A stretch of 42,871 nt of DNA from NCBI GenBank assembly GCA_029907605.1, contig JARYLO010000008.1:1-42871 (forward strand), read 5' to 3'. The DNA is from Sedimentisphaerales bacterium. Its GTDB lineage: Bacteria > Planctomycetota > Phycisphaerae > Sedimentisphaerales > Anaerobacaceae. The notes under the pieces are model-generated. The model was not told the DNA's origin and did not search any database. It was given only the letters and a program-made list of their open reading frames with translations. Shown here in pieces: positions 28,884-40,941 of this stretch (position 1 is its first letter; every line of letters starts with the position of its first letter). The translations under genes were made by a program, and so were the position numbers.

Positions 28884-29339
28884 ATGCATATACGTCCAGC
28901 CAAGGTCTCGGATGCCAGGCAGATAAACGCATTGATCGGTACCTTTGCCGAGCAGGATAAGATGCTCTTCAGGTCCCTGGCAGATATCTACGAGCACCTG
29001 CAGACCTTCCTGGTTGCACAGGAGGATGATCAGGTAGTGGGCTGCTGTGCCCTGGAGGTGGTCTGGTCAGACCTGGCAGAGATCAAGTCCCTGGCGGTTG
29101 CCCAGGGGCATCAATCAAAGGGGATAGGCACTGCCTTTGTGACGGCCGCATTAGAGAAGGCAAGAGAACTGGGGATCGGCAAGGTCTTTGCGCTGACCAT
29201 GGAGCCTGGCTTCTTCAAGAGGTTGGGCTTTGTGGAGGTCCCAAGGGAGAGCCTTCCGATGAAGGTCTGGAGGGACTGCGCACGCTGCCCAAAACAGCAA
29301 AGCTGCGATGAGGTGGCTGTGCTAAGGTCGCCAGCCTAG
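28884..29339 (+). CDS. GNAT N-acetyltransferase (ArgA-like)
   Basis: The 151-residue protein begins MHIRPAKVSDARQINALIG and contains LAEIKSLAVAQGHQSKGIGT, the acetyl-CoA pyrophosphate loop (Q/R-x-x-G-x-G/A), and FFKRLGFVEVPRESLP. The C-terminal LPMKVWRDCARCPKQQSC is a feature of short NAGS/ArgA-type acetyltransferases, with three cysteines arranged C-x2-C-x5-C that could bind a metal. It probably acetylates glutamate for arginine synthesis or another amino acid. The ATG at 28884 fits the start of the family; a TTG at 28869 lies inside the -10 region and is unlikely. Its stop overlaps that of the convergent permease gene in the palindrome CCTAGG. Confidence 0.85.
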   Translation: MHIRPAKVSDARQINALIGTFAEQDKMLFRSLADIYEHLQTFLVAQEDDQVVGCCALEVVWSDLAEIKSLAVAQGHQSKGIGTAFVTAALEKARELGIGKVFALTMEPGFFKRLGFVEVPRESLPMKVWRDCARCPKQQSCDEVAVLRSPA

Positions 29340-30298
29340 GCTGCCTGCCTTCTTTGGAATAAGGCTACTGCCAGGCCCAGGATCCCGCACATATAGCATA
29401 TGGCATAGGCCCCTGCGATGAGGATATACCTGAACGGGACCTGGGTACCTTCGTATATGGCGTCACTGATCCAGAATACCTGCAGATTCGGCACGAGGAA
29501 TCTGCCTATGGCTGCCCACCAGTGCTCCTGGGCCAGGCGGCCAAACACATAATCACTTATAAGACCTAGCAAGAAGACGCCCACACATCCTGCTAGCGTG
29601 ACTGCAAGGCTGAACCTGCTGGATAGTGCAAGTGCCATTGCAGCAACGATCAAGGCAGCCAACAGCAGTAGGACCGAGCCGTAGACGTCGGTAAGGTGAA
29701 TATTGTTGCCCTGTGGGTTAAATCGCCAGTTGCGATCTACAAGGCACAGGAAGACCATGGCCCCTGTGCCGAATAAAGCCAATAATGATATGACCGTTGA
29801 GGAGAACTTCCAATCGAACCAGTACGTGAATAGACCGGCTAGTAACACGCTGATCCCTACGGCTGCTGCGGCTGCGGCGATGACGGTCATGTCATGGGTA
29901 TCCCCTGCAGATTCGAGTACCCCATGTCTTATGGCCATTAATAGTGCTATGGTGCAGACAAGGTGTGCCAAGGCTATTGCTGCTGCCACCCCCAGGAACT
30001 TTGCCAACACGAATATTGGCCTTGGCACCGGCTTGGAAAGTACTGTGGTGATGGTCTTGCTGTCCATCTCCTCTGCGATCGACCCTGCAGCCGCAAATAT
30101 GGCCACAAAGAGGCTGGTCAAGAAGAGTGTTGACAGGCCCATGTCCCGCAAGAACTTATTGTCGTCGCTCATGGTGTACATGGAGATGGCTGGGCTGATC
30201 AGCAGTAGGATCAGTGCAGAGCCTACCAATACTGCGTACACAGGCTGTCTTATGGCCTGAGTGAAGGTGTTCTTGGCGATGGTATAGACCTTCTGCAT
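29336..30298 (-). CDS. ABC-2 type transporter permease (orphan)
   Basis: The 320-residue membrane protein has about six or seven hydrophobic segments. Its start is typical of ABC-2 permeases (MQKVYTIAKNTFTQAIRQP), and the segment SIAEEMDSKTITTVLSKP with PRPIFVLAKFLGVAAAIALA is the family signature 'e...gT....L.~P..R..~~lgK~l'. The ATG at 30298 has CGGAGG 6 bases upstream. The related permease at 37772 has the matching segment HTVLTKPIRRYQFILGKFLG, so the two belong to one subfamily. No ATPase gene adjoins this copy; it may share the ATPase at 36697. It is divergent from the SPFH operon. Confidence 0.85.
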   Translation of the reverse strand: MQKVYTIAKNTFTQAIRQPVYAVLVGSALILLLISPAISMYTMSDDNKFLRDMGLSTLFLTSLFVAIFAAAGSIAEEMDSKTITTVLSKPVPRPIFVLAKFLGVAAAIALAHLVCTIALLMAIRHGVLESAGDTHDMTVIAAAAAAVGISVLLAGLFTYWFDWKFSSTVISLLALFGTGAMVFLCLVDRNWRFNPQGNNIHLTDVYGSVLLLLAALIVAAMALALSSRFSLAVTLAGCVGVFLLGLISDYVFGRLAQEHWWAAIGRFLVPNLQVFWISDAIYEGTQVPFRYILIAGAYAICYMCGILGLAVALFQRRQAA

Positions 30299-30481
30299 CC
30301 TTTGCCTCCGATTGGACGACATCTTAACCTACGAACCAAGGTCACTGGGGTTTCGTATCGGTTGTTGATTTTTCGACATGTTGCCCCTAGACTCTGGCGA
30401 CGTCGTTTTTAGTTGGATCAGGTCATCTTGTAAAGGTTGATCTTGGGCGCGGCAGCAACTGACAATGTTGAGCTGGAAAGG

Positions 30482-32539
30482 ATGACCCGCACCTCCAAGG
30501 CCCCTGAGCACCTGGCTTGGGCCTGTCTGGTAGTAGGCGCGGTCCTGTCAACAGTGGCGGTATTTGTAGGCAGATGGTCAGGTTATACCGCAGTCTGGAC
30601 CGTGGGGTGTCTGATCGCAAACGGGGTGTTGATCTGGTTCGTGCTTGCCTTGCACCTGAGACTGCGGCGTCTGGCCTACCAGGAGCAATTGGATACGGCC
30701 CACTGGGCACAGGGCAGGCAGTCCTCAAGCATCTTCCAGGCCGAGGCAGAGCAATCCCTGGTGACGGTGATTGCAAGGCGGAGGCTTGAGGTATTCGAGA
30801 GGTGGTTCATCCCGATCTTCGGTGCCCTGATCGCTGCGGTCCAGATAGGTCTAGGGTGGGTGATATGGAGGTATGGACTGCGGCATATCGATGCCCAGGC
30901 CCAGTCTCCGCTGGTGGCAGGGATCATCATGGCCGCTGTGGCATTCGTGTGTTTCCTGCTTTCGCGATATGCCACTGGCATGTCCGCACAGCCTGCATGG
31001 AGGCCTTTGCGTGCAGGGGGCAGTGCATACCTGGCAGTAGCGGTGGCCGCCTTTGTCCTGGCCATAGGATTGGGTTTTGCCCAGTTCCAGGTATTCTGGC
31101 TCGAGAGGGCCGTGGCATATGCAGTGGCGGCCTTACTTGTAGTGCTGGGCCTAGAGACCCTGCTGAATGTCGTTCTGGATATCTATAGGCCCAGGGTGGA
31201 AGGGCAATATGACCGTGCCCCATTCGACAGCAGACTGTTGGGCCTGATCAATGAGCCTGGCAGCATCCTCCAGAGCCTGGCCAGCGCCCTGGATTACCAA
31301 TTTGGTTTTAAGGTCTCCCAGACCTGGTTCTATAAGCTACTGGAGCGGGCCATAGTGCCGCTCTTTTTGTTTGGTGTCGGGACGTTGTACATGGCCAGTT
31401 GCATAGCGGTCATACAGACCGATCAGCAGGCCATCATAGAGCGTCTCGGCAGGCCTATACGCCAGGTCCGGCCCGGCATGCACATAAAGTGGCCATGGCC
31501 TTTCGAGGTGGTCAGGGCCTATACCATAGGCAGGATCATGGAACTGCCGATCGGCTATAAGCCCAAGCTCGATCCGGCTGGATTCGAACAGCGTAGCCCC
31601 TTGCTATGGAACAAGCCGCACTACGAGGAGGAGCACAGCCTGCTGGTTGCAAGTGAAACTGGACAAGGTCCTGTCTCAGGGCAGTTTGGGGGTGCCTTGC
31701 CTGTTAGCCTGGTAAAGGCCAATGTCCCTGTTCACTACAGGGTAAAGGACCTGCGTGCCTTCTTGTACAACTACAGCGATCCACAAAAGACGCTGGAGGC
31801 GATCTGCTATCAGCAGCTTACGGTCTTTGGTGCAAGTGCGACTATCGAGACCGACCAGATGGGCTCAAGCAGGATTGCAGAGAGCCTGCTCGGCGGAGGA
31901 CGTGATAGGGCCAGGAAGGTCCTGATGCAGATGATACAAGAGGCTGCAGACGAGGCTGGCCTTGGTGTAGAGATCGTCTTTGTTGGTGTTCAGGGCATAC
32001 ACCCACCTGTGGAGGTGGTGCCTGAATACCAGGCAGTGGTTGGTGCGGTGCAGGAAAAGCAGGCACTGATCTTCAATGCCCTAGGCCAGCAGAATGAGGA
32101 CCTGTCTGGTCTTGTAGGGAGCGTTGAGCAGGCCTATGCCCTCTATGACCTGGCTACAAGATATCAGCAGGCAAGCAGGCAATCCAATCAGGCAGAGGAC
32201 GAGCGGTTGGGTGCCGAGTTAGACAGGGCCTTTGGCAGGGCGGTAGGTGAGGTCTATAGGATCCTTCGCGAGGCAAAGGCATATGCATACCGCAGGGCCA
32301 AGGAGGCCTATGGTGTTGGTATCAGGTTCAGGGGCCAGTTGGAGGCCTATCGTGCAGCGCCGAAGATCTTTGTCAGGCAGCAAAGGCTCCAGGCGCTTGC
32401 TGAGGCCATCTCGCCCATCCGCAAGTATGCGGTACTTGCCGAACCAAACGATAGAGAGGTCACTATTGTGGATCTACAGGATAAGCTTATGCCTAATGTG
32501 TATGACATAGGCCCACTTCAGGAGCAGAGGAACCCATGA
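30482..32539 (+). CDS. HflK-like SPFH protein with a large multi-pass N-terminal domain
   Basis: The 685-residue protein is unusually long for an HflK-like protein. About residues 1-270 form six membrane helices (for example LAWACLVVGAVLSTVAVFVG and AYLAVAVAAFVLAIGLGFAQ); a seventh (VPLFLFGVGTLYMASCIAVI, about 295) leads into the SPFH domain with IQTDQQAIIERLGRPIRQVR and PGMHIKWPWPFEVV. VPVHYRVKDLRAFLYNY and GLGVEIVFVGVQGIHPP are typical SPFH/HflK motifs, followed by a long coiled coil with Ala/Glu/Tyr repeats. HflK-HflC complexes form cages around FtsH in the inner membrane; here a multi-pass domain is built in. The ATG at 30482 is preferred over a TTG at 30437. The stop overlaps hflC in ATGA. 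Confidence 0.85.
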   Translation: MTRTSKAPEHLAWACLVVGAVLSTVAVFVGRWSGYTAVWTVGCLIANGVLIWFVLALHLRLRRLAYQEQLDTAHWAQGRQSSSIFQAEAEQSLVTVIARRRLEVFERWFIPIFGALIAAVQIGLGWVIWRYGLRHIDAQAQSPLVAGIIMAAVAFVCFLLSRYATGMSAQPAWRPLRAGGSAYLAVAVAAFVLAIGLGFAQFQVFWLERAVAYAVAALLVVLGLETLLNVVLDIYRPRVEGQYDRAPFDSRLLGLINEPGSILQSLASALDYQFGFKVSQTWFYKLLERAIVPLFLFGVGTLYMASCIAVIQTDQQAIIERLGRPIRQVRPGMHIKWPWPFEVVRAYTIGRIMELPIGYKPKLDPAGFEQRSPLLWNKPHYEEEHSLLVASETGQGPVSGQFGGALPVSLVKANVPVHYRVKDLRAFLYNYSDPQKTLEAICYQQLTVFGASATIETDQMGSSRIAESLLGGGRDRARKVLMQMIQEAADEAGLGVEIVFVGVQGIHPPVEVVPEYQAVVGAVQEKQALIFNALGQQNEDLSGLVGSVEQAYALYDLATRYQQASRQSNQAEDERLGAELDRAFGRAVGEVYRILREAKAYAYRRAKEAYGVGIRFRGQLEAYRAAPKIFVRQQRLQALAEAISPIRKYAVLAEPNDREVTIVDLQDKLMPNVYDIGPLQEQRNP

Positions 32540-33435
32540 AGCGTCTTGGCGTGCCGATCATCGTGATATTCCTGATACTGCTGTTTCTATCCATGCTGGT
32601 GGTCTTTCAGGTCAGACAGACCGAGGTGGCATTCGTGACCAGGTTTGGGCGGCCTGTAAGACCGGTAATAGAGCCTGGTCTACACCTCAAGTGGCCTGAT
32701 CCCATAGAACATGTCACAAGGTTCGACGCTAGGCTGAGGCTCTTTGAGGGCGATTATGCTGAGACCACCACCAAGGGTGCAGTACCGGTCATAGTCAAGA
32801 CATACGTGACCTGGCGGATAGTAGATCCACTGGCATTCTATAGGGCGGTAGGTACATCGATCCAGGCAGCTGAGAACAAGCTGTATAGCCAGATCAAGGA
32901 CACGCAGAATCGCGTCTTTGGCCAGCACCAGTTCGCTGAATTGGTCAATAGCGATCCAAATCAGATACGTCTGGCCCAGATCCAGCAGCAGATGTTGGAG
33001 GATATCAAGAAGGCCATGGAGGAGGACTATGGCATAGAGATAAAGGCCTTGGGCATAAAACAGATGAAGGTCAGCGAGGACGTGAGTGCAAAGGTCTTTG
33101 ACCGAATGAAGGCTGCCAGGACCCTTAGGACAAGGGCCACGATAGCCGAAGGTCAGGCGGAGGCCAAGGCTATAGAGAGTGATGCAAAGGCAAAGAAGGA
33201 AGAGCTATTGGCCGCTGCCCAGGCAAGGGCCATGGCCATAAGGGGACAAGGCGATGCAGAGGCAGCGAAGTACTATCAGATGCTAGAACAAGAGCCCGAG
33301 TTTGCCATGTTCCTGAAGAATCTAGAGGCCCTCAAGCAGATGCTCAAGGACAGGACCACACTGGTCCTGCCGATGATGGTTGAACCATTCAATCTCCTGA
33401 TGAGATTGCCCGATCCGAATCAGTGTAATAGATAG
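32536..33435 (+). CDS. hflC: HflC-like SPFH protein
   Basis: The 299-residue protein has an N-terminal anchor (VPIIVIFLILLFLSMLVVFQ) followed by the SPFH domain: VRQTEVAFVTRFGRPVRPVI, PGLHLKWPDPIEHVTRFDAR and the helical stretch EDVSAKVFDRMKAARTLRTR followed by AEGQAEAKAIESDAKAKKEE, which is diagnostic for HflC/prohibitin-like coiled coils. HflC pairs with HflK to regulate the membrane protease FtsH and to organise membrane domains. It overlaps the upstream HflK-like gene by 4 bases and precedes hflK by 9 bases, so the three SPFH proteins are probably made together in fixed ratio. Confidence 0.93.
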   Translation: MKRLGVPIIVIFLILLFLSMLVVFQVRQTEVAFVTRFGRPVRPVIEPGLHLKWPDPIEHVTRFDARLRLFEGDYAETTTKGAVPVIVKTYVTWRIVDPLAFYRAVGTSIQAAENKLYSQIKDTQNRVFGQHQFAELVNSDPNQIRLAQIQQQMLEDIKKAMEEDYGIEIKALGIKQMKVSEDVSAKVFDRMKAARTLRTRATIAEGQAEAKAIESDAKAKKEELLAAAQARAMAIRGQGDAEAAKYYQMLEQEPEFAMFLKNLEALKQMLKDRTTLVLPMMVEPFNLLMRLPDPNQCNR

Positions 33436-33444
33436 GCGTGGAAG

Positions 33445-34773
33445 ATGGCAGCCGATCATCCAGACAATCATCCTGATCACGAGCCTGAGGCCTTAGACAT
33501 CGCACAGATGGACTCTGCCAGTAGGTCTTTGGCAGAGGCCCTCAGGATCAGCTTTATAGTGCTGAAGTTTGTGATGATCGGCATCATAATCGCATTCCTT
33601 GCCACATGCCTACAGACCATAGGGCCACAGGAACAGGGCATACTGCTCCGCTTTGGTCAGGTGAAGGTAGGTCCTGACGGCCAGGTGGCGATCAAGCCTG
33701 GTCTGAAGTTTGTCTGGCCCTATCCGATAGAGGAGTTGGTCAAGATCCCGGTCTCCACAAAGACAAACCTGGCGATAAACTCATTCTGGTACTTTCAGAC
33801 ACCAGAGGAGCTCTTGGCTGACAAGACCAGGCCTGCACCCAGGCCGCCAGCAAAGTTGGATCCACTTGTGGAGGGGTATTGCCTTGCGCGTGGAGAGGAT
33901 GTGGGTAATCTACTAGGATTGACAGGCAGGCAGTTCAGGCGATTGTTGGTGACAGGGGGCGATGATTACAGCATCGTCCATTCCAAGTGGCAGGTCACCT
34001 ACGAGATCAGCGATATAAAGGCTTTCTTCAAGAATATACCCGTCCAGACGCCCAAGCCGGGCGAACCTTATTACCAGCTGATGAAAAAGGGGGTCAATCC
34101 GATCATACAGTCTTGTGTTGAGGAGGCGGTCATCAAGACGATGGTCAAGTACAATATCGATGAGGTGATCGCTGCAACCGACAGGGTTGCCTCTCAGGTC
34201 AAGGAGCTTGTCCAGGAGAAACTGGATACATTGGAAAGCGGGGTAAGGGTCCTTTCCGTGACACTGACGGCCTTTACCTGGCCCAGGCAGGTGGACGAGG
34301 CCTTCCAGACCTTTATCACTGCTAGTCAGCAGGCCCGTACCCAGGTCAGTCAGGCCCAGGCCGAGGCACAGACCACCATGAATGAGGCTGCAGGGCCTGT
34401 GGCCGCACAATTGACTGCCGCCTTGGAAGATCCAAATACCGATCCCAATACGCTTGAATCGCTTTGGGCTCAGGTCTCAGGTGAATGCCAGAGGATCCTC
34501 GCAGAGGCAAGGGCGTACAGGACAAGTGTGGTCGAGTCAGCCAGGTCCACGGCGGAGTATTTCCTGAGTCTGTTACCTGAATACAGGAATAGACCCATGC
34601 TTGTGGTGCAGGTCCTATATCTTGATGCAATTGGCCAGGTCTTGGCTGGTATTGATGAGAAGTTCGTACTACAACCTGCTACTGGCGGCAGTAGAGAGGT
34701 AAGGATCCTGTTGAATCGTGATCCAACGATCAGGGCAAGGCAGGCCGAAGGTTTGCAGAAATCCGGGCAATAG
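33445..34773 (+). CDS. hflK: HflK-like SPFH protein
   Basis: The 442-residue protein begins with a hydrophilic His/Asp-rich tail (PDNHPDHEPE), then a membrane anchor (FVMIGIIIAFLATCLQTI) and the SPFH domain with PQEQGILLRFGQVKVGPDG, IKPGLKFVWPYPIEELVKIP and WQVTYEISDIKAFFKN. The helical end contains ASQQARTQVSQAQAEAQTTM and GECQRILAEARAYRTSVVES, the typical HflK coiled coil. It has an insert after the first SPFH strands (about 110-165, with KTRPAPRPPAKLDPLVE) that is not in E. coli HflK. It should assemble with the two preceding SPFH proteins. The next gene, a metal ATPase, starts 3 bases after its stop. Confidence 0.88.
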   Translation: MAADHPDNHPDHEPEALDIAQMDSASRSLAEALRISFIVLKFVMIGIIIAFLATCLQTIGPQEQGILLRFGQVKVGPDGQVAIKPGLKFVWPYPIEELVKIPVSTKTNLAINSFWYFQTPEELLADKTRPAPRPPAKLDPLVEGYCLARGEDVGNLLGLTGRQFRRLLVTGGDDYSIVHSKWQVTYEISDIKAFFKNIPVQTPKPGEPYYQLMKKGVNPIIQSCVEEAVIKTMVKYNIDEVIAATDRVASQVKELVQEKLDTLESGVRVLSVTLTAFTWPRQVDEAFQTFITASQQARTQVSQAQAEAQTTMNEAAGPVAAQLTAALEDPNTDPNTLESLWAQVSGECQRILAEARAYRTSVVESARSTAEYFLSLLPEYRNRPMLVVQVLYLDAIGQVLAGIDEKFVLQPATGGSREVRILLNRDPTIRARQAEGLQKSGQ

Positions 34774-34776
34774 TCG

Positions 34777-36690
34777 ATGGTCCATGAACATCTTCACCTA
34801 AAGGAACAGGTCAGTCCCGACCAGCAGCAACTGCGGGTCAGCATGGCATTACTAGGTACCTTGGCAGGGGGGGTGCTGCTGATCAATAGCCGTGTTGGCC
34901 AGATCTTCTATGGGAAGGGCAGCTTCAATACGGAACTATTCGCCCTTGCAGGTGCAATACTGCTAGGGCTTCCGGTGGTCTGGCATGCAGTAAAGTGCCT
35001 GCTGAAGGGCCATTCCCACATGGATGAGCTGGCCGCCCTTGGGATCATAGCTGCCTTTGCTACGCAGGACTATGTCTCTGCAGGACTTATCGGGTTCTTC
35101 ATGTTGCTTAGCCAATTGGTCGAAACCAGGACCGCGCTGGGGGCCAGGGCATCGATCGAGGCCTTGATCAAACTGACCCCGACAAAGGCCTGCAGGTTGG
35201 ATGATGCAGGTGGCGAACAAGAGGTGCCTGTGAGCGGGTTGAGGCCTGGCGACCGTATCAGGATAAGGCCTGGGGACAATATCCCTGCAGACGGCGAGGT
35301 CATAGGCGGATACAGCTCGGTCAACGAGGCGACCATAACCGGCGAATCGCTACCTGTGGACAAGGTGCCAGGGATGCAGGTATTTGCAGGCACGATCAAT
35401 CTTACTGGTGTCCTGGATGTGCAGGTGACCAAGGCCGGTTCTGATACGACCTTGGGCAGGGTGCAGTCATTGATCGTCCAGGCGGAGCAGACCAAGATCC
35501 CCATCATGAGGATCATCGATAGGTACGTCAAGTGGTACGTGCCTACGGTGCTGATGATAGCTGCGATAGTGTGGTTCTTCACCCGCAACACCAGTCAGAC
35601 CATCACCATACTGGTGATTTCCTGTCCTTGTGCCTTGATATTGGCCACGCCAACGGCCATGGTGGCCGCGATCTCTGCAGCTGCAAGGATGGGTGTGCTG
35701 GTCAAGAATGTGGCAGACCTGGAGATCGTGGGCAAGGCCACCGCACTTGTCTTTGACAAGACCGGCACGATCACCACCGGCAAGCTGTTCGTCACGAAGC
35801 TGACGCCAGGTCCCCAAATCGGACCTGCCGAACTGCTCTCTACTGCCGCCTCTGCAGAACGGATGAGCAGGCATCCTGCTGCAAGGGCCCTGCAGGAGTT
35901 GGCCAAGGAGGCCAATGTTGTCCTTACCGATCCTACAGGATTCCAGGAGGTCCCTGGCAAGGGTGTGATTGCCACCGTCAACGGCCAGAAGGTGATAGTC
36001 GGCCGCGAGACCTTCCTGCAGGAGCAGGGGATCGACACCAGCCAGGTCCGAGGACCGAGCCTGCATGAGGAACAGGGCTTCAGCACCTTGTATGTGGCCA
36101 GGGATGGGCAGTGCATAGGTTGGATCGGGCTTGAGGACAAGACCAGGCCCGAGGCAAAGGAGGCGGTCAAGGAGCTTTTGGAGATCGGGATCAAGCGTAT
36201 TACCATGTTGACCGGGGATCGCAATGATGTGGCAAACAGGGTGGCAGCTGAGCTTGGTTGTACGGACTTCAAGGCGCAGTGTCTGCCACAGGATAAACTG
36301 GCCATAGTCGAGCAGATAAAAAGACAAGGGCATACGGTGGTGGTGGTTGGGGATGGGATCAACGACGCCCCTGCCCTGGCTGCAGGTGATCTGGGCATAG
36401 CCATGGGTGCGGCAGGCAGCGATGTGGCGATCAATTCGGCATCTATCGCCTTGATGAACGATGATCTTAGGCGTCTGCCGTTCTTGGTACGCATATCAAG
36501 AAAGACAAGGCGGGTCATAGGGCAGAACCTTGCCTTTGGCGTGGTGTTTATCATACTTGGGATATCCCTGTCGAAGTTCGTGCCGCCTACGTTGGCAGCA
36601 CTATTTCACTTTGCCAGCTCCCTGATCGTGGTATTCAACTCTGCCAGGCTAGTGAGGTTTGGCGAGCAGACCGTCAGCCAACGGATCTAA
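34777..36690 (+). CDS. P1B-type heavy-metal transporting ATPase
   Basis: The 637-residue pump shows all P-type marks: actuator motif TITGES, the CPC metal site in VISCPCALILATPTAMVAA, phosphorylation motif FDKTGTITTGK, the P1B-specific His-Pro pair in SRHPAARAL, TGDR and hinge GDGINDAPALAAGDLGIA. About seven or eight membrane helices are present. No N-terminal HMA (CxxC) domain is seen; the N terminus is short with several His residues (MVHEHLHL). The CPC motif fits Cu+, Ag+, Zn2+, Cd2+ or Pb2+ transport; the substrate is not settled. It starts 3 bases after hflK and is followed by an ABC ATPase 6 bases later, so it is embedded in the SPFH operon. Confidence 0.93.
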   Translation: MVHEHLHLKEQVSPDQQQLRVSMALLGTLAGGVLLINSRVGQIFYGKGSFNTELFALAGAILLGLPVVWHAVKCLLKGHSHMDELAALGIIAAFATQDYVSAGLIGFFMLLSQLVETRTALGARASIEALIKLTPTKACRLDDAGGEQEVPVSGLRPGDRIRIRPGDNIPADGEVIGGYSSVNEATITGESLPVDKVPGMQVFAGTINLTGVLDVQVTKAGSDTTLGRVQSLIVQAEQTKIPIMRIIDRYVKWYVPTVLMIAAIVWFFTRNTSQTITILVISCPCALILATPTAMVAAISAAARMGVLVKNVADLEIVGKATALVFDKTGTITTGKLFVTKLTPGPQIGPAELLSTAASAERMSRHPAARALQELAKEANVVLTDPTGFQEVPGKGVIATVNGQKVIVGRETFLQEQGIDTSQVRGPSLHEEQGFSTLYVARDGQCIGWIGLEDKTRPEAKEAVKELLEIGIKRITMLTGDRNDVANRVAAELGCTDFKAQCLPQDKLAIVEQIKRQGHTVVVVGDGINDAPALAAGDLGIAMGAAGSDVAINSASIALMNDDLRRLPFLVRISRKTRRVIGQNLAFGVVFIILGISLSKFVPPTLAALFHFASSLIVVFNSARLVRFGEQTVSQRI

Positions 36691-36696
36691 TAGACC

Positions 36697-37770
36697 ATGC
36701 AGTATGCAGTCCAGACAATCGGCCTGACCAAGATATTCAATGATTGGTGGGGCCGGCCTAAGGTCCGCGCGGTAGAGGAGCTAAACCTCACGATAAGGTA
36801 CAACGAGGTGTTTGGGCTACTAGGGCCAAATGGTTCTGGCAAGAGCACTACACTGAAACTCCTGCTCGGCCTTCTATATCCCACAAAGGGCAGGGCCATC
36901 GTGCTAGGTGGCGATGGGGACGACCCCAAGATCAATAGGAGGATCGGTTATCTGCCAGAGGAGTCGTATCTGTATCGTTACCTCAATCCGAGGGAGACCC
37001 TGGACTTCTACGGCAGGCTCTTTGGTCTGCCTAGCAAGATAAGGAGGGAGCGAACAGAGGCCCTGCTGGAGATGGTGGGGCTAAAGGCAGTTGCAAATCG
37101 CCCTATAGGGACATTTTCAAAGGGCATGGCCCGCAGGATAGGCCTTGCCCAGGCCTTGATAAACGACCCTGACCTATTGATCCTGGATGAGCCGACCAGT
37201 GGGCTCGATCCGATAGGTACCAAACAGATAAAGGACCTGATCAGGACCCTTGCCAGCCGCCGAAAGACCATCATATTGTGCAGTCACCTGCTTGCAGACG
37301 TAGAGGATGTGTGTGATCGGATCGCCATACTCTATGGCGGCAGGATCAGGGCTGAGGGTCCTGTAAAGGAGTTGCTACAGCGATCCGATAGGATCCAGAT
37401 CAGTACAGGCCCTGTTAGCCAGCAGACTATCGAGCAGATCAGGCAGCTCCTTGCCCAGGAGGCTGGCCAGGTGGATGTCTCATCGCCTATGGAGAGGCTG
37501 GAATCCTTCTTCATGCGGATCGTCTCTGAGGCCCAGGCCAGGGCCCAGCCGACCAGTGGGGCGATCAGCACCACACAGATAGGTTCATTCCTAGCAGGTC
37601 AGCCTAGTGGCGACCTGCTTGAGCGATTGACCGAATCTGTTGAGCAGCCGCAGCCGGCCACCGAACAGTCTGCAACCAGGCCTATAGAGACACCAACGCC
37701 TGTCAAGCAGGAGATACTTGATCAGTTGGTCTACAGGCCAGAGGATCAGCAGGACAAGGGGCAGGGTTAG
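36697..37770 (+). CDS. ABC transporter ATP-binding protein
   Basis: The 357-residue protein has a complete ABC ATPase: Walker A GPNGSGKSTTLKLL, Q-like loop GYLPEESYLY, signature FSKGMARRIGLAQAL, Walker B LLILDEPTSGLDPIG and the H-loop LCSHLLADVED. It is of the ABC-2 exporter type (NatA/CcmA-like). The C-terminal tail beyond about residue 270 is long, low in complexity and rich in Gln, Thr and Pro (for example SVEQPQPATEQSATRPIETP), unlike most family members. It pairs with the permease that begins 2 bases after its stop and may also serve the orphan permease at 29336-30298. Confidence 0.93.
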   Translation: MQYAVQTIGLTKIFNDWWGRPKVRAVEELNLTIRYNEVFGLLGPNGSGKSTTLKLLLGLLYPTKGRAIVLGGDGDDPKINRRIGYLPEESYLYRYLNPRETLDFYGRLFGLPSKIRRERTEALLEMVGLKAVANRPIGTFSKGMARRIGLAQALINDPDLLILDEPTSGLDPIGTKQIKDLIRTLASRRKTIILCSHLLADVEDVCDRIAILYGGRIRAEGPVKELLQRSDRIQISTGPVSQQTIEQIRQLLAQEAGQVDVSSPMERLESFFMRIVSEAQARAQPTSGAISTTQIGSFLAGQPSGDLLERLTESVEQPQPATEQSATRPIETPTPVKQEILDQLVYRPEDQQDKGQG

Positions 37771-37771
37771 T

Positions 37772-39145
37772 ATGGGAAAGATCCTGGCGGTTGCTACAAA
37801 CACGGTCAGGCAGGTCGTCAGGATGAGGATCGCGGTGGTCTTTTTCGTCTTATTGTTGGTGATCCTGCCTGTGCTTGCCGCTGCTAGCACTGGAGATGGC
37901 ACCGTGAAGGGCAGGCTGCAGACCTTCGTCAGCTATGGGCTTTCTCTGATAGGTCTCTTGGTGTCGCTACTGACGATCATTGCAATGACCTATACGACCA
38001 CTGCAGATATAGTGCAGTGCCAGGTGCACACGGTACTTACAAAGCCGATACGCAGATACCAGTTTATCCTGGGCAAATTCCTGGGCGTGATGATCGTTGA
38101 TGTGGTGGTACTGGCAATCATGTCTGGGCTGGTGTTCGGGATCACCATCTATAGTCCTAGACTCTTCAGGATCGATCCTGAACAGATGGAGCAACTAAAT
38201 AATGAGTTCTTCACTGCCAGGAATGCCCTAAGACCAACAGAGCCAGATGTCTCCAAGGAGGTTGAGGAGCTTTACCAACGTCTGGTCACCAGCCAAGAGC
38301 TCGAACAGGTCTTCAAGGGTTTGCCCAGGGAGCAGGTCATAGCGAGGCTGACTCAACAGAAGAGGCTGGAAAAGAGGGCAGCAAGTGTTGGCCAGGAGCT
38401 GATGTGGGAGTTCCACAATGTCAGGCTTGCCGACCCGAATGGCTCGCTTTTCATAAGATTCAAGTACAATGTCAGCTCCAATCCTATAGACCTGCAGATC
38501 TCCAGTCAGTGGCTGGTTGGTGACCTGAGGCAACTCAACCAGGGGGTCCAGGTCGGCACGCCCATCTATCGGGTGGAAAGGAAGGATCCGGTCCGAACCT
38601 TCAGGGAGTTTGCAGTCCCAGCCGATGCGGTGGCCAAGGATGGGTATCTGGCAGTCGCTTTCCTCAATGATCTGGATAATGACACGGTCGTGATCTTCCC
38701 ATTGGACGAGGGGCTGGAGGTCTTGTATAAGGCCGGTGGCTTTACCGCGAACCTGTTGCGAGGTGTGTTGCTGATATTGGTGCGATTGGTCTTTCTCGCT
38801 GCAGTTGGTGTGTTTGCTGGGTCGTTCTTGTCATTTCCTGTGGCGATCCTGCTATGCCTGCTTGTGCTATTCACTGGTAGTACCAGTGGCTTCATACTAG
38901 AATCCTTCTCTTTTCTGGGCAAGAACCTAAGCGTTATCTACGACTATACACTCAAACTCTTGGTCCAGGCGCTACCCAGGTTTGACCTAATGAACCCAAC
39001 CAAGTTCCTAGTCTCGGCCAGGTTGATACCCTGGTCGCTGGTGCTTTGGCAAGGTGGAGGTCCCATCCTCGCCAAGGCATTGGTGCTCTTGGCCACAGGC
39101 CTTTGGGTGTTCAGGTCTAGTGAGCTTGCCAGGACCACGGTTTGA
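37772..39145 (+). CDS. ABC-2 type transporter permease with large extracytoplasmic domain
   Basis: The 457-residue permease begins MGKILAVATNTVRQVVRMRI with its first helix (VVFFVLLLVILPVLAAAS). QCQVHTVLTKPIRRYQFILG is the ABC-2 coupling segment. Between helices at about 110-130 and 325-345 lies a hydrophilic domain of about 190 residues with coiled coil (EVEELYQRLVTSQELEQVF) and a beta part (LFIRFKYNVSSNPIDLQISS). Further helices (LLRGVLLILVRLVFLAAVGV, FPVAILLCLLVLFTGS) follow. The start at 37772 is chosen because it follows the ATPase stop by 1 base; an upstream in-frame start inside the ATPase gene is unlikely. It probably exports or extracts a lipid-like or envelope substrate. Confidence 0.85.
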   Translation: MGKILAVATNTVRQVVRMRIAVVFFVLLLVILPVLAAASTGDGTVKGRLQTFVSYGLSLIGLLVSLLTIIAMTYTTTADIVQCQVHTVLTKPIRRYQFILGKFLGVMIVDVVVLAIMSGLVFGITIYSPRLFRIDPEQMEQLNNEFFTARNALRPTEPDVSKEVEELYQRLVTSQELEQVFKGLPREQVIARLTQQKRLEKRAASVGQELMWEFHNVRLADPNGSLFIRFKYNVSSNPIDLQISSQWLVGDLRQLNQGVQVGTPIYRVERKDPVRTFREFAVPADAVAKDGYLAVAFLNDLDNDTVVIFPLDEGLEVLYKAGGFTANLLRGVLLILVRLVFLAAVGVFAGSFLSFPVAILLCLLVLFTGSTSGFILESFSFLGKNLSVIYDYTLKLLVQALPRFDLMNPTKFLVSARLIPWSLVLWQGGGPILAKALVLLATGLWVFRSSELARTTV

Positions 39146-39162
39146 TGGTGCTTTAGACGCAC

Positions 39163-40941
39163 ATGAAGGCCCGTGACATAGCTGTATATCTAGTGGGTAT
39201 CATATTGGCCATATGCCTGCTATGGGCAGCAGGTGCGCAACTCGACTCCATCAACGAGAAACGCAAGGCCATGAAGCTGGTGATGAACGAACCTCTCGAG
39301 AACGCCCCCCCATCCCTGGCCTTTGCAACAGTGGCAATGGGGGCATTTAGGGGATTGGTGGTGGACATACTGTGGATCAGGGCAGATGCCCTCAAGGAGC
39401 AGGGCCAGTTCTTTGATGCAAGACAACTGGCCGAGTGGATCACAACCCTGCAGCCTAGGTTCCCAGATGTATGGGTCTTCCAGGCATGGAACATGGCCTA
39501 TAACATATCTGTCGCCATACCCGTTTCCCGGCCAGATCAGAGATGGCATTGGGTAAAGAGCGGTTATGAGCTGCTACGGGATAAGGGGATACCGCTCAAT
39601 CCAAAGAGCCTGGCGCTATACCAGGAACTCGGCCGTATCTTCCAGCACAAGATAGGCGGGATCACGGACGATGCCCACAAGTACTATAAGGTCCAGCTTG
39701 CCAAGGAGATCGGCCCGCTTGTAGAGGTGGCAGACCAGTCCTACTTCGAGGCACTGGCGGCAGCACCGACGGATTGGTCCCAGATCTATTCGGATCCCAA
39801 CCTTAGGCCGATCATACATGCCCTGATGGCCTCGGATGACGCATTCTCCACGCCAGAACGATTCTTCTCCAGCTACATGGCCCTTACCCAGGACCCAAAC
39901 CGGTTTGGGCCAAGGCCCTTTCAGGTCATACAGTCATACCTGGGAGACCCCAATCTCAGGCGGCTTGGCCTGATCGTTAGGGCCCATCAATTGAGGAGGG
40001 TCTGGAAGATGGACCCTGCCTTCATGGTAGAGCTCAACAAGCTCTATGGACCTGTTGATTTCAATGACCCCAACCATGTGATACCCCTGGACTGGCGACA
40101 TCCAGACTCCCACGCCATCTATTGGGCCGCCATGGGGCTAAAGATGGTTGCGGAGGAGCAGGGCCGCAAGCTAGAGACCGTCGAGCTCAACACCGACCGG
40201 ATCATCATGCACAGCCTGCAGAACCTATTCAGGTATGGCAGGCTCCTATTCTATGATGTGGCGGTCAGGCCGCAGAAGGAGGATGGGAGCCTGGCAGAAG
40301 AGCCAGTTATCGTGACGGACGTCTTTGTAAGGCCAGACCTGCGGATGTTCGACCGATATCATCAGGCGGTACTTGCACTTATGGAAAAGTACAGTGACAA
40401 AGACACCAGGGAGGAGTCGCTGGCGGTCGGGCATAGGAATATGCTCAGGAATGCGGTCTTGTCCTTCTATCAGAGCGGGCTGGTCGCCCAGGCCCAAAGG
40501 ATCTACGATGAGCTACGCAGGAGGTATCCGCTGGATGAATTCAAGGTCCCTTTGGCCGAGTTCTGCAGGCGTAAGTTCATTGACGAGTTACAGGGCCTCG
40601 GTATGCCCGATGCAACCGAGCAGGTGGTGGCACTGCTCAAGCAGAGTTATTATCTCTATGCCATAGGCTCTGATGACGAGGCCTTTGGTACAGAGAGGCT
40701 TGTGCAGCAGATCTATGACTACTATCACAAGGAATACTCGGACGAACAAGGCAGACTAGGCCTGCCCACTATGGCAAGGATCAGGTATACTGCCCTGATA
40801 GACTTACTTGGTGATCCGCAATACCCACCCTACCTCAGACAGAACCTGTTGACCAGGATCCGCAATGAAAGGCCCCAGTTATTTGAGCTCCTGCAGAAGG
40901 AAGAGCAGCAACTACAGGCCACAAGGCCGGTAGGGCCGTAG
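39163..40941 (+). CDS. Large membrane-anchored unknown protein ending the SPFH operon
   Basis: The 592-residue protein has one N-terminal membrane helix (DIAVYLVGIILAICLLWAAG) and a long helical extracytoplasmic part. Segments such as FRGLVVDILWIRADALKEQG, FDARQLAEWITTLQPRFPDVW and VFQAWNMAYNISVAI resemble TPR-like helical repeats. I do not recognise a named family. It follows the permease by 17 bases on the same strand, so it belongs to the same transcript and may be the periplasmic partner of the ABC exporter or the SPFH complex. The next gene is convergent, 3 bases away, so the operon ends here. Confidence 0.8.
   Translation: MKARDIAVYLVGIILAICLLWAAGAQLDSINEKRKAMKLVMNEPLENAPPSLAFATVAMGAFRGLVVDILWIRADALKEQGQFFDARQLAEWITTLQPRFPDVWVFQAWNMAYNISVAIPVSRPDQRWHWVKSGYELLRDKGIPLNPKSLALYQELGRIFQHKIGGITDDAHKYYKVQLAKEIGPLVEVADQSYFEALAAAPTDWSQIYSDPNLRPIIHALMASDDAFSTPERFFSSYMALTQDPNRFGPRPFQVIQSYLGDPNLRRLGLIVRAHQLRRVWKMDPAFMVELNKLYGPVDFNDPNHVIPLDWRHPDSHAIYWAAMGLKMVAEEQGRKLETVELNTDRIIMHSLQNLFRYGRLLFYDVAVRPQKEDGSLAEEPVIVTDVFVRPDLRMFDRYHQAVLALMEKYSDKDTREESLAVGHRNMLRNAVLSFYQSGLVAQAQRIYDELRRRYPLDEFKVPLAEFCRRKFIDELQGLGMPDATEQVVALLKQSYYLYAIGSDDEAFGTERLVQQIYDYYHKEYSDEQGRLGLPTMARIRYTALIDLLGDPQYPPYLRQNLLTRIRNERPQLFELLQKEEQQLQATRPVGP

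Follow-up and report, generated by a model that had tools for sequence, protein, structure and literature searches.

A planctomycete SPFH protein with a likely CDF-type membrane domain, encoded together with HflC, HflK and a P1B-type ATPase

The systems closest to the locus described here are SPFH assemblies, cation diffusion facilitators (CDF) and metal-efflux platforms. Most SPFH groups are reported to have N-terminal transmembrane regions (PMC2636767). The HflK/HflC assembly of E. coli surrounds FtsH, with an entryway present (PMC12048511), and stomatin, likewise an SPFH assembly, encloses AQP1 and UT-B (PMC12407830). In mycobacteria, PacL1 and CtpC form a metal-efflux platform; PacL1 belongs to the DUF1490 proteins and contains Glu/Ala repeats, and a flotillin-like protein is reported to be absent from its foci (PMC9374683). 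The available part of PMC2636767 mentions neither a protein that combines SPFH and CDF domains nor a link with P-type ATPases, and in PMC13220708 the term P-type ATPase occurs in the reference list only. Among the literature matches listed, none described an SPFH protein that carries a CDF domain, or a P-type ATPase joined to an SPFH protein by fusion or linkage in planctomycetes.

The window (the whole stretch of 42,871 nucleotides that was analyzed) is a contig of a Sedimentisphaerales genome of 2.89 Mb that is 94.6% complete. It contains a tightly packed row of genes that starts with an ABC-2 permease on the minus strand (29336..30322; Pfam scan) and continues on the plus strand with K1 (30482..32539), HflC (32536..33435), the HflK-like K2 (33445..34773) and a P1B-type (heavy-metal) ATPase (34777..36690; TIGR01525, 566 bits against a cut-off of 346). 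These are followed, also on the plus strand, by an ABC transporter ATP-binding protein (36697..37770; PF00005, E = 1.5e-30), an ABC-2 type permease-like protein with an uncertain TTG start (37718..39145; PF12698, E = 5e-4, below the cut-off) and a TPR-like protein with an N-terminal membrane segment (39163..40941; PF13428, E = 9.7e-5, just below the cut-off). The spacings from K1 over HflC and K2 to the P1B-ATPase are −4, 9 and 3 bases, such that the ATG of HflC overlaps the K1 stop codon and the ATPase starts 3 bases past the stop of K2. The permease-like and TPR-like proteins (37718–40941) have no NCBIfam match, and both are conserved with K1.

K1 is a single unbroken frame of 685 residues that runs from an ATG at 30482 to a TGA at 32537–32539. 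Upstream, the reading frame extends without a stop to a TTG at 30437; conservation favors the ATG at 30482, which aligns with the start of a relative from the same genus. Four parts follow each other on the plus strand: a six-helix membrane domain with a predicted CDF fold (residues 2–239, 30485..31198), a linker (residues 236–289, 31187..31348), an anchor formed by the seventh long helix (residues 282–305, 31325..31396) and an HflK-like SPFH domain with C-terminal helices (residues 306–685, 31397..32536). Hydropathy analysis flags six strong segments starting at residues 11, 39, 109, 142, 182 and 210, next to the anchor at 290, together with weak segments at 252 and at three places within the SPFH half. 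AlphaFold predicts long helices at 6–33, 36–79, 97–135, 143–167, 176–200, 206–235 and 282–305. Both methods thus bear out the extra multi-pass domain ahead of the SPFH fold that an earlier note on this DNA had pointed out. In the same hydropathy run, a single strong segment is seen in HflC and likewise in K2. The segments up to and including the anchor number seven in 22 and eight in 11 of 33 sequences according to the hydropathy script. Loop 58–108 contains eight K+R and six D+E residues, and loop 161–181 three K+R and no acidic residue. By the charge rule only, this would fit a K1 with a cytosolic N-terminus and a cytosolic linker (236–289) and with its SPFH domain outside the inner membrane, as in HflK.

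The full-length AlphaFold model has a mean pLDDT of 81.4 and a pTM of 0.44, so the relative placement of the two halves is poorly predicted. Modeled alone, residues 1–312 reach a pLDDT of 78.2 and a pTM of 0.74 with the same long helices. The alignment supplied to AlphaFold (A2) comprised 68 of the 74 non-redundant K1 sequences derived from 78 full-length ones, the six omitted sequences including five with a late or doubtful start; a further alignment (A3) additionally omits that of locus L159. The earlier note had left the N-terminal part without a known fold. The predicted structures suggest that its six helices likely form the membrane domain of a CDF transporter of the YiiP/ZnT kind. The full model superimposes on YiiP (8f6k_B) with a Z score of 20.0 and 2.5 Å over 201 residues, and the domain modeled alone finds YiiP as its best CDF match (Z = 19.8, 2.7 Å, 200 residues aligned). 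In the comparison with the domain alone, the first 25 rows are all CDF chains (YiiP, SLC30A10 and ZnT) with Z scores from 19.8 to 10.2, and the best non-CDF chain follows at 10.1. For this half, Foldseek gives a probability of 1.00 with E-values that are not significant (0.016 at best for the full model and 0.068 for the domain alone).

With the N-terminal part by itself, Pfam returns no match, and PF01545, the CDF family of Pfam, has none in the K1 protein of the window. A comparison with the phylum-wide profile A5 (the 33 sequences of alignment A1) does match 13 CDFs including E. coli FieF, with an E-value of 2.2e-5 and a probability of 76.5% in one profile comparison, the controls having been run without the FieF set. 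This match is colinear over 193 columns and covers all six helices. Against 12 planctomycete CDFs the E-value is 3.9e-4, and the seven controls (the reversed CDF profile, as well as two ABC permeases and a P-type ATPase, each forward and reversed) gave E-values of at least 0.067. When the deepest K1 sequences were added (57 of 72 rows kept by hhalign), the CDF score weakened to 1.4e-3, with the seven controls at 0.026 or higher. The order-level K1 profile did not find the CDFs by hhalign (E = 0.1), and among PDB sequences it retrieved only three ZnT1 entries with helices 1 and 2 in register, which are not significant (E = 0.34–0.55); the wider K1 profile had no matches in the PDB sequences. 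Profile comparison agrees with the CDF fold when the K1 side is diverse enough. A Pfam scan of 68 K1 members is noisy: Caveolin is reported for 31 (weak, best E = 0.0031), Proton_antipo_N for nine and Sensor for two (best E = 2.8e-5), and Cation_efflux, the third most frequent match, for only four (best E = 0.029). For the deep K1 proteins of loci L192, L193, L197, L199 and L200, the order-level N-terminal profile gives no report, and for L198 it gives 34 bits only; the proteins of L192, L193 and L197–L200 have six to eight membrane-like segments, anchor included. The cytosolic metal-binding domain found at the C-terminus of CDFs is absent from K1, where linker, anchor and SPFH domain take its place and Pfam finds only Band_7.

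The ligands of site A in FieF are D45, D49, H153 and D157. In the profile alignment that contains FieF, they correspond to L44, G48, A182 and V186 of K1 (helices 2 and 5). Across the 33 phylum-wide K1 sequences, these four places hold no D, E, H or C in 18 cases and one in 15, with three or more in none, and at order level 63 of 69 sequences have none and six have one. In the 13 CDFs, a D or H stands at each place in 12 or all 13. With the site A ligands lost, K1 is unlikely to transport metal in the manner of a CDF, and we rejected its reading as an active CDF transporter on this ground; the N-terminal domain is probably a pseudo-transporter. A transporter with a rebuilt site, for instance one using E68 and E225 or the residue at position 44, appears highly improbable. 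E68 and E225 are indeed invariant in the 33 sequences, 12 of which have H and 10 Q at position 44, but a canonical site takes four ligands, of which no K1 keeps even three, and E68 is located where helix 2 is predicted to extend into the cytosol. An ordinary CDF is encoded elsewhere in the genome, with a weak second match below the cut-off.

The earlier note had considered that an internal start near 31380 with an independent protein upstream would speak against one continuous protein. Such an arrangement is unsupported: across the 78 of 392 phylum genomes in which the N-terminal domain was found, its frames are 480–1043 residues long, save four short pieces of 133–195 residues. Nearly all of these frames are long enough to include an SPFH domain, the short ones being fragments or splits, and in the loci that were read the SPFH domain itself is confirmed. 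Full-length K1 is 27–66% identical to 32 relatives. The linker (236–289) has the highest conservation of the protein, 0.75 versus 0.45–0.57 elsewhere (69 order-level sequences), and P237, S250, R251, Q273, G275 and F276 are invariant in the 33 sequences. As this peak spans the join of both parts of K1, it argues against two proteins. Two independent genes were therefore rejected, given the fused frames across the phylum and the conserved linker across the join. That the frame represents two genes or an assembly artefact has a negligible chance of being true: the domain does come in two pieces in a few relatives (G204, G265), yet single frames recur in dozens of genomes from several families and the best-conserved stretch crosses the join. 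In these relatives (G204:C1 and G265:C1), the CDF-like domain is split over two frames near residue 120–140, in or just past the long cytosolic loop behind helix 2.

With whole K1 as the query, 94 of the 99 genomes in the relatives set have a match, as do 122 of the 294 in the phylum set; the genome of the window is counted in both, and some matches are to other SPFH proteins only. The N-terminal domain alone gave matches in 78 of the 392 phylum genomes sampled and in 64 of 101 genomes of the class; beyond the phylum, it was looked for only among the best 80 of 495 loci. A single K1 sequence as a query against the genome contigs returned nothing, whereas an alignment as a query did find matches. 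The named relatives are the best 80 of 495 loci; they come from metagenome-assembled genomes, nearly all of Phycisphaerae, Sedimentisphaerales or other Planctomycetota.

The second half of K1 carries a Band_7 domain (PF01145, residues 310–533, E = 3.8e-10, 40.5 bits against 23.6). It resembles E. coli HflK (7vhq_E) with a Foldseek E-value of 1.6e-12, and the structural match by VIA has a Z score of 16.2 with an rmsd of 11.2 over 267 aligned residues. HflC exceeds its family cut-off (TIGR01932, 144.7 bits against 134.4). K2, a protein of 442 amino acids with a single strong membrane segment, scores 106.1 bits with the HflK equivalog profile TIGR01933 and K1 scores 74.3 bits, both below the cut-off of 159.4. 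A tree built from 76 SPFH domains unites HflC with its E. coli counterpart (100/99), and K2 with HflK of E. coli (89/81). The latter two share a clade with the SPFH domains fused to ATPases (see below), supported at 90/96, to which K1 does not belong; K1 is not monophyletic in this tree, as the long row K1_L198 is placed elsewhere with weak support. K1 is therefore probably a separate SPFH paralogue instead of an HflK with an addition. The trio of K1, HflC and HflK noted earlier is a conserved one, with HflC following in 75/75 and HflK in 71/71 loci with enough sequence (best 80 of 495), and judged from the sequences it plausibly constitutes a three-subunit SPFH system.

One reading of such a trio is that K1, HflC and HflK together are the FtsH modulator of the phylum, in which the CDF-fold domain would select membrane substrates as a gate or adaptor and the P1B-ATPase would be a mere neighbor or one client. 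The genome has one FtsH gene above the family cut-off, K1, HflC and K2 are its only Band_7 (SPFH) proteins found, HflC passes its equivalog cut-off and K1 folds like HflK, all in line with the arrangement around FtsH in E. coli. The FtsH gene, however, lies on another contig of the same genome with none in the K1 operon, and the fusions of P1B-ATPases with HflK-like SPFH domains that occur elsewhere are not explained by neighborhood alone. We regard this reading as fairly unlikely. A defense-system reading was rejected, as PADLOC gives no match for K1 or HflC; for K2, it reports a weak MukB-like match of 15.6 bits in the helical part.

The strongest functional clue, absent from the earlier note, is the P1B-ATPase downstream. 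Among the loci (best 80 of 495) whose sequence reaches far enough on the side in question, the P1B-ATPase follows K1 in 63/63, the ABC ATPase in 61/61, the permease in 60/60 and the TPR gene in 56/58, while the divergent permease lies upstream of K1 in 70/70. Among 39 further K1 loci across the phylum, HflC comes next in 35 and HflK in 34, with both following in 30; a P1B-ATPase lies close to K1 in 30 of the 39 (22 downstream and eight upstream). It was not seen near K1 in the other nine, two of which have less than 2 kb beyond K1 and one of which (L180) has no upstream sequence. The order-level linkage of the ABC and TPR genes, which is as tight as that of the P1B-ATPase, would also suit an SPFH trio working for the ABC-2 exporter and TPR protein encoded in the same operon, with the ATPase in a secondary role. 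Loci L179, L185 and L191 are on the same side, as they keep the ABC and TPR genes with no P1B-ATPase seen in the stretch examined (5.7–5.9 kb before and 9.9 kb after K1). Deep loci such as L192, L194, L196, L197 and L200 nonetheless keep K1, HflC, HflK and the P1B-ATPase without adjoining exporter genes in the stretch examined, and among the loci studied an SPFH fusion was seen with P1B-ATPases only. We consider a primary role for the exporter unlikely. Just upstream of the deep K1-HflC-HflK-P1B operon in L197, a gene (L197:3971–5578, plus strand) encodes a large multi-helix protein that resembles metalloid permeases by eye.

The operon P1B-ATPase is the only one in the genome above the TIGR01525 cut-off and contains the motifs CPC, DKTGT and TGES. 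In the 80 aligned order-level copies, CPC is present in all and DKTGT and TGES in 77. The 31 deeper ATPases, one of which is the fusion of L202, show CPC in 18, TPC in one and other variants in 12. CPG instead of CPC is found in five of the 31 (L183, L187, L192, L193 and L197); these ATPases may have a different substrate or may have lost theirs. In another planctomycete family (f34, which we think is Pirellulaceae), a P1B-ATPase and an HflK-like SPFH domain are joined in one protein of about 1,100–1,200 residues. Of 61 genomes of that family, at least 20 have a single match that spans both ATPase and SPFH domain; in three of these, the match contains an in-frame stop. The fusions comprise L202:9557–13021 (minus strand), L213–L224, L245, L247–L249 and L252–L260, and both domains are present in all 14 that were checked with profiles. 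A gene pair of an HflC-like and a further SPFH protein directly follows the fusion in 10 of these 14; the contig ends in one case and the pair is absent in three. Five fusion sets were included in the SPFH tree, where their second gene falls with HflC and their third beside HflK and K2. P1B-ATPases are tied to SPFH trios in two ways, by operon and by fusion.

A tree of 72 ATPases (every eighth order-level copy, midpoint root) separates the operon (42) and fused (14) ATPases into two clades, both with support of 100, and the fused ones lie with 16 other P1B-ATPases of their family. The link with SPFH proteins thus either has several origins or goes back very far. The HP pair is absent in eight of 14 fusion-set rows, which have HL or HV instead, and activity of the fused ATPases is therefore not to be assumed. 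The fused SPFH domain scores best with the K1 SPFH profile in 14/14. A simple exchange of CDF domain for ATPase in an ancestral K1 was rejected, as the tree puts the fused SPFH domains on the HflK side (90/96).

While the architecture and fold of K1 are well supported, the function of the K1 system is a matter of inference at about an even chance. From sequence, predicted structure and analogy, the assembly of K1, HflC and HflK may organize the co-encoded metal pump in a scaffolded metal-efflux platform, a reading that could as well be right as wrong. K1 would be an HflK/HflC-like SPFH subunit, the third of the assembly, with a CDF membrane domain inserted ahead of its anchor, and this dead CDF domain would most likely be a docking or spacing module and not a pump. 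Together with HflC and HflK, K1 could co-assemble into a membrane wall whose SPFH domains lie outside. Lining this wall, the CDF-fold domains and the conserved cytosolic linker would hold the P1B-ATPase inside or beside it, much as aquaporin is held by stomatin rings and CtpC by PacL. For this platform, we infer the topology from charge, along with co-assembly, binding of the ATPase, a metal substrate and non-transport by K1. The order-level linkage of the ABC and TPR genes, equal in tightness to that of the P1B-ATPase (best 80 of 495), stands against the platform, and so do the phylum loci in which no P1B-ATPase was seen near K1, the ATPases that lack CPC or the HP pair, and the position of the fused SPFH domains, which do not lie inside K1 in the tree. 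More broadly, planctomycetes might have metal-efflux compartments with SPFH walls and covalent transporter modules (a dead CDF domain in K1, a P1B-ATPase in the fusions), SPFH cages being organizers of transporters first and regulators of FtsH in some lineages; this extension is tentative and rather doubtful. The locus matters for the contents of bacterial SPFH cages, as K1 and the fusions name a likely client that is directly testable. K1 has a transporter-fold domain built into an SPFH protein and conserved in much of a class, and apparently exemplifies a CDF transporter that has become a structural component.

Compared to HflK/HflC, K1 shares the Band_7 domain, an HflK-like fold and adjoining HflC and HflK genes; by the charge rule, its SPFH domain may also lie outside the inner membrane. 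It differs as a third paralogue with six extra helices (seven long helices versus a single anchor), in that K1 and K2 both remain below the HflK equivalog cut-off, and by its operon with a P1B-ATPase and an ABC exporter. With CDF transporters (YiiP/FieF, ZnT/SLC30), K1 shares the six-helix membrane fold, at a Z score near 20 for the predicted model, and a colinear profile match, but it lacks the transport-site ligands and the CDF C-terminal domain and has an anchor and SPFH domain instead. The resemblance to PacL1/CtpC is that of a membrane scaffold in one operon with a P1B-ATPase, which for the K1 system applies to 63/63 loci (best 80 of 495). The K1 scaffold is, however, an SPFH protein, and no DUF1490 match was found by Pfam among the eight window proteins scanned. 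Finally, stomatin is an SPFH assembly that gathers membrane transporters, as proposed for the K1 system; its client is a separate protein, whereas K1 carries a transporter-fold domain itself.
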